NCBI GenBank assembly: GCA_006383075.2
Contig: SMNH02000010.1
Coordinates: 1-64,000, forward strand
Reading direction: 5' to 3'
Length of the DNA stretch: 64,000 nucleotides
Origin: Kordia sp. TARA_039_SRF
GTDB lineage: Bacteria; Bacteroidota; Bacteroidia; Flavobacteriales; Flavobacteriaceae
This document shows, piece by piece, positions 1 through 54,519 of this stretch (positions are counted from its first letter, which is position 1; each line of letters opens with the position of its first letter). Position numbers and translations under genes: made by a program. The notes under the pieces are model-generated. The model was not told where the DNA came from and did not search any database. It saw only the letters and a list, made by a program, of their open reading frames with translations.

Positions 1-2685
1 GGTTATAGAAGGCAGTTAGACAAAATCGGTTTCTCATTCGATTGGAGCAGAGAAGTGCGCACTTCCAATCCTGAATATTACAAATGGACACAGTGGATTT
101 TTATCGAATTGTTCAACTCGTGGTACAATGTAGAAACGGACAAAGCAGAGCATATTGACACGCTTATCGCGAAGTTTGAAAAAGAAGGGAATACTACTGT
201 AAAAGCGTTGTGTGATGATGATGTAGCCATGTTCGCTGCGGCGGAATGGAACAACTATTCCGCAAAAGAACAACAAGAAATTTTACTCAAATACAGACTC
301 ACCTATTTGGCAGAAACGGAAGTAAACTGGTGTCCTGCATTGGGAACGGTGTTGGCGAATGACGAAATTGTCAACGGAGTTTCCGAACGTGGCGGGCATC
401 CTGTCATTCGCAAAAAAATGACGCAATGGAGCATGCGAATTTCTGCGTATGCACAGCGTTTGCTAGATGGTTTGAACGAAATCGATTGGCCACAACCTTT
501 AAAAGACTCACAAACCAATTGGATTGGTCGCTCGCAAGGCGCGATGGTGACGTTTAAAGTAGATGGACACGACGCGAATATTGACGTTTTCACCACACGA
601 CCAGACACCATTTACGGTGTAAGTTTTATGACGTTGGCGCCAGAACACGATTTGGTAGCGAAAATCACAACTGATGGACAAAAAGAAGCGGTTGAAAACT
701 ATGTAGAAGCCACAGCAAAACGTAGCGAACGTGAACGTATGGCAGACGTAAAAACGATTTCAGGAGTTTTTACGGGCGCACATGCGATTCATCCGTTTAC
801 AGGAGAAAAAATACAAATTTGGATTGGCGATTATGTATTGGCAAGTTACGGAACAGGTGCTGTGATGGCAGTTCCATGTGGAGATCAACGTGATTATGAC
901 TTTGCAAAGCATTTCGGATTGGACATTCCAAACATCTTTGAAAATGTAGACATTTCAGAAGAAGCATACGCTGAAAAAGAAGGTGTAAAAATCGCTAATT
1001 CTGACTTCTTAAATGGTTTGACCTATAAGAAAGCCATGAAAACCGTGATTTACGAAATGGAAAAACGCGGTTTTGGAAAAGGAAAAATCAACTATCGTTT
1101 GCGCGATGCAGTTTTCTCGCGTCAGCGGTATTGGGGCGAACCGTTTCCAGTGTATTATGTAGACGGAATGCCACAAATGATTGACGTACAACATTTGCCA
1201 ATCACACTGCCAGAAGTAGAAAAATATTTACCCACCGAAACGGGCGAACCGCCATTAGGAAACGCTGAGGTTTGGGCGTGGGACACCAATACAAATACCA
1301 TCGTAAGTAATGAACTTTGTCATTCCGCACTTGATGCGGAATCTGCTGAGGATAACGGAATTTATCCTCTGGAGTTAAACACCATGCCAGGTTGGGCAGG
1401 AAGTTCTTGGTATTTCTTCCGTTACATGGAAAAAGCCTTACGCGATGAACATTTTGCTGGCAAAGAAGCGTTAGACTATTGGCAAAATGTAGACTTGTAC
1501 ATTGGCGGAAGCGAACACGCAACAGGACATTTGTTATACGCACGTTTCTGGACAAAATTCTTACACGACAGAGGTTTTGTAAACGTAGACGAACCGTTCA
1601 AGAAGTTAATCAACCAAGGAATGATTTTGGGGACGAGTGCTTTTGTGTATGCCTATTTGTTAGATTGTACAAATGTAGCAGGAGGAAATATTTCAGTAGA
1701 TGTTCCCAAAAAACAACTCTTTTTAATTTCAAAGGAAGCTTATGACTCCATTTTAGAGGGTAATTCTGTTAAAGAAATAGAAAATTGGCTCATTGATAAA
1801 TATGGAAAAAAAGAGGAATGGACTTTTGAAGTTAATTATAGTTCTAATCACGTTTTAAAACGAAATGTAGATATAAGCTTATTAAAAGGTGTTAGTGATG
1901 AACTTGATGTTGAGGAATTTAGAGAAGACAATAGATATAAAGATTTAGCAGATGCTATTGTTTTGTCAGATGATGGAAGCTATATAACTCATCGCGAAGT
2001 CGAAAAAATGTCCAAGTCCAAGTATAATGTTGTAAATCCTGATGAAATTTGTGAAACGTACGGCGCAGATAGCTTGCGTTTGTATGAAATGTTTCTTGGA
2101 CCGTTGGAGCAATCGAAACCTTGGAATACAGCGGGAATTACAGGTGTTTTTGGCTTCTTAAAGAAATTATGGAAGTTGTATGTTTCTGACGAAGGTCCGA
2201 AAGTAACCGAAGCCGAACCGACGAAAGACAACCTAAAAACTTTGCACAAAACCATCAAAAAAGTGCAGGAAGACATTGAAAACTTCTCGTTCAATACATC
2301 GGTAAGCACGTTTATGATTTGTGTCAACGAATTGACCGATCAAAAGTGTACCAGCAGAGCGATTTTAGAACCGTTAACAATCTTAGTTTCTCCGTACGCG
2401 CCGCACATTGCAGAAGAGTTATGGTCGCGATTGGGCAATGAAGGTTCTATTGCTACCGTGAAGTTTCCAGTGTTTGAAGAGCGTCACTTGGTAGAAAGTT
2501 CCAAAGAATATCCAGTATCATTCAATGGAAAAATGCGTTTCAAAAAAGAGTTACCGCTAGATTTATCTAAAGAAGAAATCGAGAAAATAATTCTAGAAGA
2601 CGAACGTACACAAGCACAATTAAACGGAAGAACTCCTAAAAGAGTGATTGTAGTTCCAGGAAAAATTATTAATATCGTAGGATAG
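1..2685 (+). CDS. leuS: Leucyl-tRNA synthetase, 5' end outside the window
   Basis: Class Ia aminoacyl-tRNA synthetase that charges tRNA-Leu in the cytoplasm. The reading frame is open from base 1 (residues GYRRQLDKIGFSFDWSREV), so the first hundred or so residues, including the HIGH motif, lie upstream. Visible parts are the editing domain, the catalytic segment MPGWAGSSWYFFRYM, the KMSKS loop at bases 2005-2019 and the anticodon-binding C-terminal part. Two oddities: codons at 1319-1343 are a palindromic genomic repeat read in frame as CHSALDAES, and about 1660-1990, just before KMSKS, is markedly more AT-rich and longer than the equivalent part of the Bacteroidota enzymes I know. The flanking catalytic motifs are intact, so the enzyme should work. 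A GTG at 55 is only an internal codon. Confidence 0.97.
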   Translation, partial: GYRRQLDKIGFSFDWSREVRTSNPEYYKWTQWIFIELFNSWYNVETDKAEHIDTLIAKFEKEGNTTVKALCDDDVAMFAAAEWNNYSAKEQQEILLKYRLTYLAETEVNWCPALGTVLANDEIVNGVSERGGHPVIRKKMTQWSMRISAYAQRLLDGLNEIDWPQPLKDSQTNWIGRSQGAMVTFKVDGHDANIDVFTTRPDTIYGVSFMTLAPEHDLVAKITTDGQKEAVENYVEATAKRSERERMADVKTISGVFTGAHAIHPFTGEKIQIWIGDYVLASYGTGAVMAVPCGDQRDYDFAKHFGLDIPNIFENVDISEEAYAEKEGVKIANSDFLNGLTYKKAMKTVIYEMEKRGFGKGKINYRLRDAVFSRQRYWGEPFPVYYVDGMPQMIDVQHLPITLPEVEKYLPTETGEPPLGNAEVWAWDTNTNTIVSNELCHSALDAESAEDNGIYPLELNTMPGWAGSSWYFFRYMEKALRDEHFAGKEALDYWQNVDLYIGGSEHATGHLLYARFWTKFLHDRGFVNVDEPFKKLINQGMILGTSAFVYAYLLDCTNVAGGNISVDVPKKQLFLISKEAYDSILEGNSVKEIENWLIDKYGKKEEWTFEVNYSSNHVLKRNVDISLLKGVSDELDVEEFREDNRYKDLADAIVLSDDGSYITHREVEKMSKSKYNVVNPDEICETYGADSLRLYEMFLGPLEQSKPWNTAGITGVFGFLKKLWKLYVSDEGPKVTEAEPTKDNLKTLHKTIKKVQEDIENFSFNTSVSTFMICVNELTDQKCTSRAILEPLTILVSPYAPHIAEELWSRLGNEGSIATVKFPVFEERHLVESSKEYPVSFNGKMRFKKELPLDLSKEEIEKIILEDERTQAQLNGRTPKRVIVVPGKIINIVG
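1319..1343. repeat. Palindromic repeat inside the leuS coding sequence
   Basis: Arms ATTCCGCA (1322-1329) and TGCGGAAT (1335-1342) with a 5-base loop. It is the same hairpin found in intergenic DNA at 28139, 34999, 46083 and 46503. Here it is read in frame and adds about ten residues to LeuRS between the editing domain and the conserved PLELNTMPGWAG segment. Confidence 0.9.
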
Positions 2686-28134: not shown

Positions 28135-28234
28135 CTTTGTCATTCCGCATTCATTGCGGAATCCACTTAGAAACTAAATGGATTCCTGCCTTCGCAGGAA
28201 TGACATAGAGCATTCAAAACCGTCAAGTTGAACT
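28082..28234. repeat. Segment duplicated at 34943-35093
   Basis: The last 53 bases of the SGNH gene, its stop codon, the two-hairpin element and about 30 further bases match 34943-35093 nearly base for base, including the gene remnant TTGTAGCTTGAGTAG there. This copy is the source since the gene is intact here. Confidence 0.85.
28139..28205. mobile_element. Short two-hairpin palindromic element (MITE-like)
   Basis: Hairpin 1 arms ATTCCGCA/TGCGGAAT (28139-28164) and hairpin 2 arms ATTCCTGC/GCAGGAAT (28180-28205), 15 bases apart. The outer ends TGTCATTCC and GGAATGACA are inverted repeats. The same two hairpins bound the GIY-YIG gene at 46082-46451, so this looks like a gene-less version. The following 110 bases hold further repeats (TGCTGAACTTGATTCAG, and short TCAATC iterations up to the TerC stop codon). 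Confidence 0.7.
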
Positions 28235-34942: not shown

Positions 34943-35093
34943 AAGGAAATAGGTGTTGAGCGATTTTTAACAATCGGAGTTGTAGCTTGAGTAGTTTTGT
35001 CATTCCGCATTCATTGCGGAATCCACTCAGAAACTAAATGGATTCCTGCCTGCGCAGGAATGACATAAAGAATTCAAACCGTCAAGTTGAACT
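34943..35093. pseudogene. Duplicated 3' end of the SGNH gene with its downstream element
   Basis: Bases 34943-34994 match the last codons and stop of the SGNH gene (28082-28134) with a few substitutions and small indels. They are followed by the two-hairpin element (34999-35065) and about 28 more shared bases. The rest of the gene is absent, so this is a gene-tail remnant carried with the repeat. Confidence 0.8.
34999..35065. mobile_element. Two-hairpin palindromic element, second copy
   Basis: Hairpins at 34999-35026 and 35040-35065 with the same arms and the same 13-base spacer region as the copy at 28139-28205. It differs at only a few positions, among them the loop of hairpin 2. Confidence 0.75.
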
Positions 35094-43569: not shown

Positions 43570-44709
43570 TCACCCAAATTTCCGCTGCAACTTATACACC
43601 AACAACACCAACCATTGTGTGATGGAAACACTTAGCAATACGCCAAAAATTTCATAGGTTTCTATCAACAATACAATCATACTGATGCTTGCAAAAAAGG
43701 CAAAAAAGCTAATGTAAATAATGATACGTTCTCGGTGATTTTTCATGAGTTCCATCACGTTTAACGTGTAAAAATAACACGGTAATGCCATAGACGAACC
43801 TACTATGTAATATTCGTAACTAAAGCCCAATTCCACAAAATATTCCATGATTAACCAAATGACAAATCCTCCAAGAATTGTCAATGGAAGCGATACTAAG
43901 TAGAGTTTGTATTTTATCTTTTGAACGACTTCATCCGACACGCGATATACATGTTTGGTAAACGGGATTGTAATGTATGCTGCCAACGCTTGCAACATTA
44001 AAAATGCCGTAATCAGCAATTGATATTCTGCCAATTGTGATGGTTTTAGGTAGAAATCGACCATGTAAATGTCTGTTTTGGAAATCAGCCAGCCACTTAA
44101 TCCTAAAATAAAAAAAGGCAATCCTAATTTGAATTCTCGCAAAGAAATGGTCGCTTTAAAAGGTTGTTTCCAATAGTGCAATTGTACGCTCAATACCATA
44201 AATTTTGCAAAAATCGCGACACAATACACTTGCAAAAAAGTCTCTAAACGAAATGTTTCGAAATAAAAAATGCTTCCGAAAATGATGCCAAAACCAAGAA
44301 GTTCTGCCACTAACTGCGCACCAAATTTTTGATGGTAAATGACCAAAGTATTTAGCGAATTGTACAAAAACAACAGGCAAATCAACACGACAGACCATAC
44401 TGCGATTTCTGCTGGAAAGAACAAAAAGAAAATTCCCGAAAAGGGCAACAACAAACTTCTCGAAAAGAGATTGCTAAAAAATGCGCGGTACATATTACCT
44501 GGGTTTTCACTGTACGCGCGCAACAAATAATCGCGATTTCCCCAACCAAAAATAAACGAGAGAAAAAATACCCAAATCATTACATTGATGAGGCTTGCCC
44601 AATCGTCTTTACCAAAGATTTTCACTCCAAAAACCACAATCAAAAAATTGAATGCAGGATTGGCGTATCCTTGAATGGTGTTGATTCCGATAGTGAGCAA
44701 TCTACGCAT
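43570..44709 (-). CDS. Polysaccharide flippase-like membrane protein
   Basis: A 379-residue polytopic protein with about ten to eleven helices of the MOP/Wzx type, shorter than the usual 400-500 residues of Wzx proteins (12-14 helices). It has the family-like start ITIGINTIQGYANPAFNFLIVVFGVKIFGKDDWASLINVM and a basic cytoplasmic loop before the C-terminal helices. It would flip a lipid-linked sugar unit across the inner membrane. It overlaps the upstream GT4 gene by eight bases, supporting a joint role in building the surface polymer. Assigned on topology more than on motif. Confidence 0.72.
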   Translation of the reverse strand: MRRLLTIGINTIQGYANPAFNFLIVVFGVKIFGKDDWASLINVMIWVFFLSFIFGWGNRDYLLRAYSENPGNMYRAFFSNLFSRSLLLPFSGIFFLFFPAEIAVWSVVLICLLFLYNSLNTLVIYHQKFGAQLVAELLGFGIIFGSIFYFETFRLETFLQVYCVAIFAKFMVLSVQLHYWKQPFKATISLREFKLGLPFFILGLSGWLISKTDIYMVDFYLKPSQLAEYQLLITAFLMLQALAAYITIPFTKHVYRVSDEVVQKIKYKLYLVSLPLTILGGFVIWLIMEYFVELGFSYEYYIVGSSMALPCYFYTLNVMELMKNHRERIIIYISFFAFFASISMIVLLIETYEIFGVLLSVSITQWLVLLVYKLQRKFG

Positions 44710-45751
44710 GATACAAAGATAGATAAGCGTTGATAGTTTCGGTTTCTGAACTCAAAAGTATGCGTTCTTTAGGTGTATTTTTTTGCGAAAGCAATGTTTC
44801 GCAAGCTTCAAAGAGTTCAATTTTGTCATGGCAAACATGCCATTTATCAGAAGCTTTGGCAAGTCCCACATCGTTTGAAACAATGTGCATTCCCGAATAC
44901 AAGGCTTCTAAAAAGACAAAACCGAACGATTCGTAATGACTCGTATGCAGTAAAATATTGGATTGCGCCATTTTTTTAAAAACTTCGCTTCGTGGAAGTG
45001 TTCCCAATAATGTAATTGTGTCTTCCAATGCTAGACTTTTGATTTTTGCTTCAATCGCATTTCGTTGGTCGCCATCGCCTATAATTGCTACGTTGAGGTT
45101 CGGATGTGTTTTTGCTAACATAGCAATGCAATCAACAAAATCGCTGTAATTTTTAACTGAATTTAAAGCGCCAACACCTAAAATATCAACCGTGTTTTGT
45201 TGTAAAGGAGGAAAGTCAGAAACGTCCAAATGCCAAGGAATAATGGTGGAAGTAAAACCGTAATTTTCAAACAATGTCTTCTGGTGATTTTCGCAAAGCG
45301 TGACCAATTTCGCATTCGAATTTTCCAAATACACTCCATACGAGTTTTTGATAGAAGCATCTTGTCCCATCACGGTCACGACATGTTTCACTTGATATTT
45401 GTCCGCGAACTTTTGTCCGATACGCGCACATTCACCAATCCAAAAGCTATGAATCGTATCAATTTTCTGGATTTTGTGTAGTTTTTTAAGTGTTTTAGCC
45501 GCTTTTCGCCATGTTTGTAATTTTCTGAGACGTTTGTTTTTTCCGTTTAGCGGAATCACTTCAATACCATGCCAATCGTATCTTTTTTTCGTAAACGGAA
45601 ACTGAAAAGTAAGCAAGGTCAATCTCGCTTCTGGTAACGCTTTTCGGATACTTTTTAAAAATACTTGTAATGCAGGAATTGTGATAGAATCCGCTTCGGA
45701 TTCCGCAAAACCTGGTGTTAAAAAGACGATATGTTGAGTTGGTTTGTTCAT
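44702..45751 (-). CDS. Glycosyltransferase family 4
   Basis: A 349-residue cytoplasmic GT-B glycosyltransferase. The C-terminal half has the GT4 pattern: ILGVGALNSVKNYSDFVDCI, NVAIIGDGDQRNAIE, ITLLGTLPRSEVFKKM, and the nucleotide-sugar motif HTSHYESFGFVFLEALYSGM with the E-x7-E acidic pair. The N-terminal half has the acceptor domain. It would add a sugar from a nucleotide-sugar donor to the growing repeat unit. First gene of a two-gene unit with the flippase. The 330 bases upstream are a repeat array. Confidence 0.92.
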   Translation of the reverse strand: MNKPTQHIVFLTPGFAESEADSITIPALQVFLKSIRKALPEARLTLLTFQFPFTKKRYDWHGIEVIPLNGKNKRLRKLQTWRKAAKTLKKLHKIQKIDTIHSFWIGECARIGQKFADKYQVKHVVTVMGQDASIKNSYGVYLENSNAKLVTLCENHQKTLFENYGFTSTIIPWHLDVSDFPPLQQNTVDILGVGALNSVKNYSDFVDCIAMLAKTHPNLNVAIIGDGDQRNAIEAKIKSLALEDTITLLGTLPRSEVFKKMAQSNILLHTSHYESFGFVFLEALYSGMHIVSNDVGLAKASDKWHVCHDKIELFEACETLLSQKNTPKERILLSSETETINAYLSLYHA

Positions 45752-45789
45752 TTTTTATTCTCGTGTAGGCGGGAATCTGGGTTATTAAT

Positions 45790-46081
45790 ATTCACAGTTC
45801 ATTATAGATTCCTGCCTGCGCAGGAATGACAAGTTGTTTCATTTTGCCATTTTGAACTTGTTACAGAATTTAATTTCTTCAGCTACCTTATTTAGATAAA
45901 TCCTAATAAACATAGTCCATAATGGATTCCTGCCTGCGCAGGAATGACAGGTTGTTTCATTTTGTCATTTTAAACTTGTAACAGAATTTAATTTCTTCAG
46001 CTACCTTATTTAGATAAATCCTAATAAACATAGTTCATAATGGATTCCTGCCTACGCAGGAATGACAGGTTGTTTCATTTT
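45790..46081. repeat. 118-bp tandem repeat array
   Basis: Three successive units with hairpin 2 (arms ATTCCTGC/GCAGGAAT) beginning at 45807, 45925 and 46043, an exact period of 118. Each unit carries a GTTGTTTCATTTTG stretch and TCTTCAGCTACCTTATTTAG, with only a few differences between copies. The third is cut off after about 45 bases by the left end of the GIY-YIG element. Confidence 0.9.
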
Positions 46082-46450
46082 GTCATTCCGCACTTGTTGC
46101 GGAATCCATGTTTGTTGCCCAATCAGAAGCTAAATCTTTCCAATTGGGGTTCTTCTCTTCAATTAAATTAATTTTCCATTGCCTTTTCCATTTCTTTAAT
46201 CTTTTCTCTCTTTTTATGGCTTCGTCAACATGTTGAAATATTTCATAATACATGAGTTTGGTAAGGTCATATTTTTTAGTAAATCCTTCAACCAATTTGT
46301 TTTTATGTTCAAAAACTCTTCTTTCAAGATTATTTGTCATACCAATGTATAACGTTCCATTCTTTTTGTTAGAAAGAATATAGACATAATATTGATGAAT
46401 TGTTTTATACATATTGTTTCTTGTGGATTCCTGCCTACGCAGGAATGACA
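46082..46450 (-). mobile_element. Palindrome-bounded GIY-YIG element
   Basis: The left end is hairpin 1 (46082-46108, arms ATTCCGCA/TGCGGAAT) and the right end hairpin 2 (46425-46450, arms ATTCCTGC/GCAGGAAT), in the same order and orientation as in the short elements at 28139 and 34999. The space between, 13-15 bases there, here holds a GIY-YIG gene. The ends TGTCATTCC and GGAATGACA are inverted. Confidence 0.6.
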
Positions 46451-46451
46451 T
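46083..46451 (-). CDS. GIY-YIG nuclease family protein encoded within a palindromic element
   Basis: A 122-residue reading frame. The core from MYKTIHQYYVYILSNKKNGTLYIGMTNNLERRVFEH is a UPF0213/YhbQ-type GIY-YIG domain (YVYIL, LYIG, the catalytic Arg of LERRV, and a Glu near EHKNK). A basic region RLKKWKRQWKINLIE follows. The first residues (MSFLRRQES) are translated from hairpin 2 and the last (SATSAE) from hairpin 1, and both the ATG and the TGA lie inside the terminal palindromes. An internal ATG at 46412 would give a shorter protein of normal family length. Substrate not known; nicking or cutting of its own repeat DNA is a possibility. Confidence 0.85.
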   Translation of the reverse strand: MSFLRRQESTRNNMYKTIHQYYVYILSNKKNGTLYIGMTNNLERRVFEHKNKLVEGFTKKYDLTKLMYYEIFQHVDEAIKREKRLKKWKRQWKINLIEEKNPNWKDLASDWATNMDSATSAE

Positions 46452-46502: not shown

Positions 46503-46609
46503 GTCATTCCGCATTTATTGCGGAATCTATTTTTACATTTTTGTTAATTTTTCAAGGAACTACAAGTTTACATAGTTCAGTGTGGATTCCTGCCTACGCA
46601 GGAATGACA
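46503..46609. mobile_element. Two-hairpin element, gene-less copy next to the GIY-YIG element
   Basis: Hairpin 1 at 46503-46528 and hairpin 2 at 46584-46609, same order as the others, with a 55-base spacer without a gene. With the tandem array and the GIY-YIG element it makes about 820 bases almost wholly made of this repeat family. Confidence 0.75.
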
Positions 46610-46618
46610 ATAATTATG

Positions 46619-47464
46619 TTACAAGTTTGATACGTTCCACTCCACATTCGTAAACACCAAATCGGTGGTTTTAATCAATTGTGGGTTTTGTTGCAATGCT
46701 TCATATGTTAACGGCGTTCCGTCGGTTTTATAAATGTAGCGATATGCTTTTACATCTTGGAATAAATGTGCTATTTCTTTGCGAATTCGTTTTTTAAAAA
46801 GGGAAAATCCGAACGTGTTTTCCAATCGCATGAGTAACTTGTTTAAAAATTTGGACGGAATGTATTTGTGGTACATGTTTTCATTTAAAAAGTGATAATG
46901 AAACGACACATATAGCGTTGGATAATTTACTTTTTGCAAAGCTTTTCCAATTGTGGGTAAAATTTTAAATTCCGCGCCTTCTACGTCCATTTTGATAAAA
47001 TCTACTGTTTGAATGTTTTCAGAATCCAAAAAATCTTCCAACGAAAGCGTATTAATTTCCAACGAGTTTTCTGTGTCGCGTTTGCGTTCTAAAATACTAC
47101 TCGACGACGCTCCGTATTGCTCGCGCGCAGACAAACGAACGTTTTCTTTCGTATTTGAAATCGCGGTTTGATAGGTTTGTATCTTTTCCACCACAGCGGG
47201 ATTTAAACTCACATTCACATTCAACTCCCGAAAACACACAGGATCTGGGTCGAGCGCATGCACTTCTTTAGCAGTTTTTGCAGCGTACAACGTTAAAACG
47301 CCACTCCACGAACCAATGTCCAAAACAACAGAATCTTTCGTCACAAAATAGTCAAAAATAGCAAAGGTATGCGGTTCCCAATCGATAGAATTGATATACG
47401 TCCAATAGTGTTTGTTTTGTCCAGGATCAATCTGAAAAGTGTGATTTTTTAGCTGAATTTGCAT
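46619..47464 (-). CDS. FkbM family methyltransferase
   Basis: A 281-residue SAM-dependent methyltransferase of the FkbM type. Motif I is VVLDIGSWSGVLTLYAA, with ALDPDP after strand 2, and the FkbM-typical INTLSLEDFLDSE and VDFIKMDVEGAEFKIL follow. Family members O-methylate sugars in exopolysaccharides and O-antigens. It starts at the base after the GNAT gene ends, and is third in the minus-strand unit deacetylase, GNAT, FkbM, so it likely decorates the same glycan. Confidence 0.88.
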   Translation of the reverse strand: MQIQLKNHTFQIDPGQNKHYWTYINSIDWEPHTFAIFDYFVTKDSVVLDIGSWSGVLTLYAAKTAKEVHALDPDPVCFRELNVNVSLNPAVVEKIQTYQTAISNTKENVRLSAREQYGASSSSILERKRDTENSLEINTLSLEDFLDSENIQTVDFIKMDVEGAEFKILPTIGKALQKVNYPTLYVSFHYHFLNENMYHKYIPSKFLNKLLMRLENTFGFSLFKKRIRKEIAHLFQDVKAYRYIYKTDGTPLTYEALQQNPQLIKTTDLVFTNVEWNVSNL

Positions 47465-54215: not shown

Positions 54216-54519
54216 GGATTTGAGATTGTAGATTGACGATTTTTGATTTGCTTCACTTAGCTAGGCTTAGTGTAGATTTTTAGAAACGCTTCACTTCGGC
54301 AAGCTCAGTGTAGACGCTTTTAGATGTTAGATCGGCTACGCCTTTTAGGCTTTTTTTGAACACTTCGCTTTTTGGTATTTTGGAAGTGCTTTGCTTTTGG
54401 TTTGCTGTTCGAATTGTCATTCCTGCGAAGGCAGGAATCTACTTTTAGTATGAAAATCTTTTTAGAAGAACGTACTTAGAAAGTCCATTTACACATTAGC
54501 ACATTTTCAAATCATCAAA
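54216..54519. repeat. Repeat-rich 300-base gap
   Basis: No gene. Contents: CACTTAGCTAGGCTTAGTG (54248-54266) and CACTTCGGCAAGCTCAGTG (54286-54304), both of the family at 43437; the short inverted repeat CACTTCGC/GCTTTGCTTTTGG area near 54361-54400; and a single hairpin with arms ATTCCTGC/GCAGGAAT at 54416-54439. Confidence 0.6.

Follow-up and report, generated by a model that had tools for sequence, protein, structure and literature searches.

Introduction

REPs of the CGTC superfamily, described in 2013 by Di Nocera, De Gregorio and Rocco (PMC3733652), are the closest described counterparts of the hairpins analyzed here. According to the available text of that paper, TGTC and CCTC are listed as tag variants, the stems are 8–9 bp long and start with A, T, the loops have 4–5 nt and the tails are mostly CCA. 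Pairs of these REPs are mostly 'HH', that is, with the tags outside, and the repeats lie mainly downstream of coding regions. The superfamily was known from five phyla. The dRS3 repeats of Neisseria and RPE-4 and RPE-6 of Rickettsia were placed in it, and the named hosts include Azospirillum lipoferum, Sinorhizobium meliloti, Novosphingobium aromaticivorans, Neisseria and likewise Caulobacter. Its members "apparently lack a dedicated transposase": some hosts encode tyrosine transposases, and no transposase gene flanked by CGTC repeats was reported except for a few fortuitous associations. The term 'GIY' has 0 occurrences in the main text of PMC3733652. In the second close system, the RAYT/REPtron partnership, the enzyme is an HUH tyrosine transposase.

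Here, we describe a locus in which CGTC-type REPs enclose a gene for a small GIY-YIG protein. The locus lies in the window, which is the whole 64,000-nt stretch of Kordia DNA that was analyzed.

The window gene and its REPs

The features of the locus, and the related repeats elsewhere in the window, are as follows.

46083–46412, minus strand: GIY-YIG nuclease gene, likely CDS (109 aa from the conserved Met; Pfam match, dN/dS)
46413–46451, minus strand: upstream ORF extension into hairpin 2 (MSFLRRQES...), probably untranslated (no ATG in K. periserrulae; REP-borne ATG rare)
46082–46108, plus strand: hairpin 1, CGTC-type REP on the 3' side of the gene, tag outward; gives the stop codon
46424–46449, minus strand: hairpin 2, CGTC-type REP on the 5' side of the gene, tag outward
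46503–46529, plus strand: REP of hairpin 1 type, half of a gene-less pair (pattern search)
46583–46608, minus strand: REP of hairpin 2 type, half of a gene-less pair (pattern search)
46041–46066, minus strand: REP of hairpin 2 type in a 118-bp tandem repeat
45923–45948, minus strand: REP of hairpin 2 type in a 118-bp tandem repeat
45805–45830, minus strand: REP of hairpin 2 type in a 118-bp tandem repeat
45786–46139, no strand: tandem array of three 118-bp units (similarity to the first unit, 92% and 68%)
28139–28204, no strand: gene-less REP pair, hairpin 1 (plus)/hairpin 2 (minus), tags outward
34999–35064, no strand: gene-less REP pair, hairpin 1 (plus)/hairpin 2 (minus), tags outward
54416–54441, plus strand: single REP of hairpin 2 type
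1319–1345, plus strand: single REP of hairpin 1 type

Read on their own strands, hairpin 1 is TGTCATTCCGCACTTGTTGCGGAATCCA and hairpin 2 is TGTCATTCCTGCGTAGGCAGGAATCCA. Each has a TGTC tag, an 8-bp stem, a loop of 5 or 4 bases and a CCA tail, with the tags directed outward; the two are therefore the same kind of object. With their YGTC tag, 8-bp stem, 4–5-nt loop and CCA tail, the window hairpins are CGTC-type REPs, a lineage-specific case of a known superfamily and not one private palindromic element. As an earlier note on this DNA had claimed, hairpins 1 and 2 bound the gene in the order and orientation of the pairs at 28139/28179, 34999/35039 and 46503/46583.

The longest ORF of the gene spans 46083–46451 on the minus strand (122 aa). 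A Pfam search with the 122-aa protein matched GIY-YIG (E 8.2e-18) and T5orf172, and no other family. The earlier note had regarded the gene as coextensive with a palindromic element, taking its ATG from hairpin 2 and its TGA from hairpin 1. The longest ORF does have this extent and both codons are formed in this way in the window, but neither property is conserved. In the nearest relative, K. periserrulae, the stop is the same and the upstream hairpin lacks an in-frame ATG. Among the best 80 of 536 relatives, an in-frame ATG lies within the upstream REP at 1 of the 49 loci that have such a REP, and a stop codon within the downstream REP at 3 of 60. Translation probably starts at the conserved Met at 46412, outside the hairpin, so that coextension of gene and element is not conserved. 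A definition of the element by start and stop codons inside the hairpins was thus rejected; the ATG that hairpin 2 forms at its outer edge and the stop formed by the tag of hairpin 1 are incidental.

The genome that contains the window (4.59 Mb) has 57 exact matches to GTCATTCC-N4-20-GGAATCYA, 12 of them in the window, and 0 matches to the reversed form. The REP at 1319–1345 is outside the 57 because its tail differs. A count by eye finds 8 outward pairs without a gene, each within 150 bp, among the 57 copies. Many of the copies stand alone, and pairing is therefore present rather than predominant in this genome. All 8 pairs consist of one hairpin 1 and one hairpin 2, as around the gene, and the hairpin 1 type is the minority (13 of the 57 copies, by eye). 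Each 118-bp unit beside the gene contains a REP together with a copy of hairpin 1 that is either intact or degenerate; two of the units have a decayed second hairpin. The array at the same site in another Kordia genome (G152; L154, L171) is longer than the three units of the window.

The genome yielded 9 GIY-YIG matches, and such hairpin flanks occur at the window gene only; at one relative of this gene, on contig C4 (L001), the hairpin is untagged and decayed-looking. A further outward pair, at C1:119335-119645 (L150:436-746), has its REPs ∼285 bp apart with no ORF of at least 40 aa between them and is perhaps a decayed cassette. We also considered whether the short pairs arose from the gene cassette by internal deletion. 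By eye, the spacers at 28139, 34999 and 46503 are unlike the gene ends, leaving the REPs alone in common, and a deletion origin is unsupported. In K. periserrulae, the upstream REP (L040:2941-2988) carries ∼23 extra nt between its arms, which look like a piece of another repeat.

REPs flank relatives of the gene in many phyla

Relatives of the gene were fetched by protein motif regardless of hairpins, and the best 80 of 536 confirmed relatives were used. In these 80 loci, GTC stands directly 5' of 80 of the 102 perfect stems (at least 8 bp) within 60 bp of the gene, and precedes 62 of the 360 perfect stems further away. All 38 left ends scored have a T or a C immediately before GTC. In 109 flanking REPs, the first stem pair is AT in 106 and the second is TA in all 109. 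In a separate count of 344 tails, 211 are CCA and 60 are CTA. Stem positions 3–8 each show at least two Watson–Crick pairs among the 109 REPs, and the stems are widely different; perfect pairing was required for detection, so this variation represents diversity and not independent covariation.

To score the arrangement, hairpins were sought within 200 bp of each gene as GTC followed by a stem of any sequence, perfect or with one mismatch. With one mismatch, outward tagged hairpins flanked 46 of the best 80 of 536 relatives on both sides and 68 on at least one side. By contrast, 579 mock positions, 1.4–2.6 kb away in the same loci, had outward hairpins on both sides in 0 cases and on either side in 12. 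With perfect stems only, the corresponding counts for the genes were 42/80 and 67/80. For comparison, 306 other ORFs in the same loci were scored with perfect stems, excluding those that overlapped the gene or lay within 250 bp of a locus end: 0 were enclosed by an outward pair, 50 had an outward hairpin on one side and 89 had a wrong-way hairpin. Tagged hairpins of the wrong orientation were also present close to the gene, on its upstream side in 21 of the same 80 relatives and on its downstream side in 15. Together with the one-sided hairpins at neighbouring ORFs, they indicate that the loci are REP-rich and that the arrangement is enriched, not exclusive. GIY-YIG genes of this kind are thus hairpin-flanked more often than expected by chance.

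The arrangement is not confined to one phylum. Among the best 80 of 536 relatives, REPs lie on both sides in 29 of 47 Bacteroidota loci and on either side in 39, and outside the Bacteroidota on both sides in 17 of 33 and on either side in 29 (two of the 33 have no assigned phylum). A control GIY-YIG subfamily (query L004) was sought in the same 149 genomes as the window type. None of its best 30 loci, three of which were shortened by contig ends, had a REP within 200 bp on either side (0/30), as compared to 19/30 on either side and 13/30 on both sides for the best 30 loci of the window type. Overall, these data firmly demonstrate a specific, multi-phylum association of the gene with CGTC REPs.

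A plasmid collection contained 31 records with a relative of the gene, of which 12 were inspected; these include Azospirillum lipoferum, Sinorhizobium meliloti, Novosphingobium aromaticivorans and Neisseria, all named as CGTC hosts in PMC3733652. Outward GTC REPs lay on both sides, within ∼105 bp, in 6 of the 12 (Azospirillum, Novosphingobium, Rhizobium CIAT894, Sphingobium, Shinella and Aeromonas). The Neisseria record had outward GTC REPs further from the gene, among other REPs; two Sinorhizobium records and that of R. tumorigenes had CCTC-type hairpins; the Photobacterium record had one wrong-way REP near the gene; and in the Planktothrix record no REP flanked the gene. A phage origin was also considered and rejected: in a tblastn search of 50,697 phage records, one relative (L092) had no match.

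The match between REP type and gene was also evaluated. A pattern built from the REP upstream of most Bradyrhizobium genes of the window type, GTCATNNCCCGC..GCGGGNNATCC, occurs in 22–65 copies in each of 6 Bradyrhizobium genomes and in 0 copies in 5 unrelated genomes. The gene at L115 has a different flanking REP type, with 5 copies in its own genome. This type also has 2, 6 and 6 copies in three Bradyrhizobium genomes in which REPs of another type flank the gene, and is absent from the remaining 7 genomes searched; there is therefore no one-to-one correspondence between gene and REP type. Overall, REP similarity is correlated with protein similarity (r of 0.35 and 0.33, reached by 0 of 999 permutations). 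For pairs below 70% identity, 422 and 253 of 999 permutations reached the observed values, and co-divergence of REP and protein beyond close relatives was accordingly rejected as not significant.

Two other arrangements were observed. In a Bacteroidota family (f17; G333:C1:554423-555103 and G368:C46:38743-39403), relatives of the gene are found amid direct repeats of the GTCATTCCGAACG type, which have no full stem and are arranged differently from the outward REP pair. At G101:C1:1044211-1045458, four tandem GIY-YIG matches lie 349 bp apart, two of them with an in-frame stop.

REPs and the gene co-occur across genomes

The co-occurrence of gene and REPs was surveyed in 295 Bacteroidota genomes, the window's own genome being left out and the gene being called at E 1e-15. 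At least two REPs were found in 76 of 123 genomes with the gene vs 15 of 172 without it (p 5e-23), and this co-occurrence was reached in 0 of 20000 permutations of the gene labels within families. In a sample of 148 genomes from the family to which the window belongs, with each genus represented once and the window's own genome again left out, the figures at E 1e-10 were 49/82 and 12/66 (p 3e-7). The other 33 of the 82 Flavobacteriaceae-level genomes with the gene have 0 or 1 REP of the searched pattern, which detects ATTCC stems alone and admits some repeats without a full stem, so that REP counts are approximate.

Two REP-rich genomes have no close homologue of the gene: G094, with 33 REPs, has no small GIY-YIG protein (open frames of at least 288 aa), and G096, with 30 REPs, has two small GIY-YIG proteins of other kinds than the window's. 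The earlier note had named relatives without hairpins, and hairpins in genomes without a homologue, as findings that would speak against its proposal. Both occur in part: an outward tagged hairpin is absent in 12 of the best 80 of 536 relatives, and 15 of 172 Bacteroidota genomes without the gene have at least two REPs, as does G094. Hairpin-less relatives and gene-less REP genomes are expected of decaying or non-autonomous repeats, so these findings weaken the proposal but do not refute it.

Presence and absence of the gene at syntenic sites

The earlier note had also predicted sites in close relatives that lack the gene, and presence and absence at syntenic sites were found in Kordia, Azospirillum and Sphingobium. 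The Kordia site lies between the ORFs at 44702–45751 and 46619–47464 (by eye, a glycosyltransferase and a methyltransferase). In 11 Kordia genomes, the gene is present at this site in 4, absent in 6, and the site is not readable in one (G157). By eye, at least 5 of the 6 gene-less sites retain a lone or decayed REP, and the REPs may thus have preceded the gene. In Azospirillum, the gene lies between sufB and sufC in A. lipoferum 4B, and sufB–sufC lacks it in the three others inspected (A. ramasamyi, A. oryzae and B510). In Shinella sp. PSBB067 (L199), a distant relative of the gene is likewise found within a stretch matching sufB–sufC, the site used in A. lipoferum.

At the Sphingobium site, the cassette is present in TomTYG46 and TomMM7A, and TomTYG73 has a frameshifted copy. 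TomTYG64 and TomTYG74 lack the cassette and have one REP with both ends tagged; TomTYG72 has neither cassette nor REP. Double-tagged hairpins are otherwise rare (by a loose definition, 6 of the 347 hairpins in all loci collected), and the form CGTC...GACG occurs in the TomTYG64 site alone; the TomTYG74 copy has an imperfect stem and is outside this count. A lone double-tagged REP is expected either as the junction left by recombination between REP arms, which would represent loss, or as a pre-insertion site, and the direction of change at this site is ambiguous. Together, these data indicate, with moderate confidence, gain and loss at syntenic sites.

The 38 elements examined showed no target-site duplication. 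Beside the tags, direct matches of 1, 2, 3, 4 and 5 bp were found in 0, 1, 2, 1 and 0 of the 38, respectively, the shuffled means for 1–4 bp being 0.0, 0.3, 0.5 and 0.1. The linkers are as unconserved as the outside DNA (0.16 vs 0.15), so homology has no sharp end at the tags, and precisely mapped element ends were not found from homology boundaries. The Bradyrhizobium loci have long flanks in common.

The encoded protein

The gene is under strong purifying selection. The dN/dS was 0.01–0.16 in 8 pairs, some with saturated dS, and 0.07–0.08 for the window gene against three Kordia relatives. The gene product is therefore used.

A structure model of the 109 residues had a mean pLDDT of 89.4. 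In a Foldseek search, the nearest PDB chain was UPF0213 1zg2 (E 9.7e-4), the sole match below 0.001, followed by Slx1 (E 9.1e-3), a nuclease of branched DNA. A profile search against structures returned two UPF0213 chains only (1zg2 and 1ywl). In 42 sequences, Y11, Y22, G24, E69 and N88 are invariant and R32 and H36 nearly so; presumably, these are the catalytic residues. The subfamily has two motifs, KKWxRxWK and NPxWxDL, and in the annotated records examined its members are named by domain only or unnamed. We take the window protein to be a COG2827 protein. According to the available text of PMC1839093, a COG2827 gene of Caulobacter crescentus, CC3518, is said to have an SOS box.

A tree of 81 proteins (98 columns) was poorly resolved, with 21 phylum changes as compared to 30.1 in shuffled data and a minimum of 15; the proteins thus appear clustered by phylum but scattered. 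Nitrotoga pairs with Flavobacterium (SH-aLRT 99), and such close cross-phylum pairs may reflect transfer or binning error.

Discussion

We consider it fairly probable (roughly 0.6) that the window encodes a REP-associated, structure-specific GIY-YIG nuclease that cuts REP hairpins, host repair then spreading both the cassette and gene-less pairs. That the protein cuts REPs, where it does so, that cutting drives spread and that the module is mobile are what we infer. In the proposed mechanism, the nuclease gene would occupy the spacer of a tag-outward (HH) CGTC REP pair. Single-stranded or as cruciforms, the REPs would form short hairpins that leave the YGTC tag unpaired, and the enzyme would nick at these hairpins. 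Through recombination with further REPs, host replication and repair would then copy, convert or delete the segment that the REPs enclose, in a homing-like manner. The gene cassette and gene-less REP pairs would appear, vanish and multiply, preferentially beside existing REPs. GIY-YIG enzymes hydrolyse DNA and are not known to carry out strand transfer, so spread would depend on host repair.

A more ambitious proposal is that a REP pair with a GIY-YIG gene in its spacer, homing into REPs through cleavage of hairpins and repair by the host, constitutes a categorically new class of minimal mobile element, which gave rise to the CGTC superfamily and has the gene-less pairs as its non-autonomous offspring. 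We regard this proposal as tentative and rather doubtful.

The chief rival is a domesticated host repair nuclease that removes hairpins or cruciforms and polices REPs rather than spreading them; REPs would collect beside the gene because the nuclease acts in cis. This role fits the strong selection (dN/dS 0.01–0.16), the retention of the same locus in four Kordia species, the long common flanks in Bradyrhizobium, the fold nearest to UPF0213 and Slx1, and the SOS box described in PMC1839093, as available, for one Caulobacter COG2827 gene. Nevertheless, genomes with the gene hold more REPs, not fewer, the REPs lie on both sides in a preferred orientation and the sites differ between close relatives, and we judge a policing role unlikely.

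Still less probable is passive hitchhiking, in which the movement of CGTC REPs is due to a RAYT or some other transposase, the GIY-YIG gene being either cargo or a place where insertions are tolerated. REPs are indeed present in genomes without a close homologue and, in the available text of PMC3733652, some CGTC hosts encode tyrosine transposases, but the same text reports no CGTC-flanked transposase gene beyond the few fortuitous cases, and mere cargo would not be expected to come from a single gene family across many phyla when none of the 306 other ORFs is enclosed. The least plausible reading, that the REPs serve the gene as terminators or mRNA stabilisers with no link to DNA processing, is in keeping with hairpins that lie mainly downstream of coding regions (PMC3733652, available text) but leaves unexplained the upstream tagged hairpin that faces the opposite way, the genome-level co-occurrence and the hairpin-free paralogous GIY-YIG subfamily.

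The association makes this GIY-YIG family a strong candidate for the enzyme that handles CGTC hairpins. Having an enzyme family tied to CGTC REPs makes the question of a dedicated CGTC-REP enzyme directly testable. It would also mean that partnerships between REPs and enzymes arose with two unrelated nuclease chemistries, and it provides a small GIY-YIG subfamily with a likely substrate. In the literature searched, most subscription journals being outside its scope, there was no earlier report of a link between GIY-YIG proteins and CGTC REPs; the available text of PMC12306157 and of PMC6006769 holds none.

Comparison with known systems

The window module differs from a DNA transposon or MITE in that target-site duplication at defined ends was not seen in the 38 elements. 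Like free-standing GIY-YIG homing endonucleases, it comprises a short nuclease gene found patchily at defined sites; unlike them, it has no intron or intein host that we could see, and its sites are multicopy REPs. The Sphingobium and Kordia sites that have REPs but not the gene are no more than suggestive of homing-type self-targeting. The protein shares the fold of the small UPF0213/COG2827-type GIY-YIG proteins and Slx1 (1zg2, 1ywl and Slx1–Slx4 complexes), and its subfamily is set apart by the KKWxRxWK and NPxWxDL motifs and by the REP flanks.

The hairpins resemble the CGTC superfamily, as described in the available text of PMC3733652, in tag, stem length, loop, CCA tail and tag-outward pairing; that text reports no dedicated enzyme, whereas here a GIY-YIG gene is enclosed. 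With the RAYT/REPtron (PMC3733652, available text) the module has in common one small enzyme gene that lies between REPs of the type found in the same genome, and gene-less copies and pairs elsewhere in the genome. It differs in having a GIY-YIG fold in place of the HUH tyrosine transposase and a CGTC in place of a GTAG tag. Since it lacks the tyrosine transposase by which REPtrons are defined, it is not one of them. The earlier note had drawn the parallel with RAYTs, with the short pairs as gene-less derivatives; as an association the parallel is strongly supported, but the gene-deletion origin of the pairs is not. The window module would thus appear to work like the RAYT/REPtron partnership, as an analogous rather than a homologous system.
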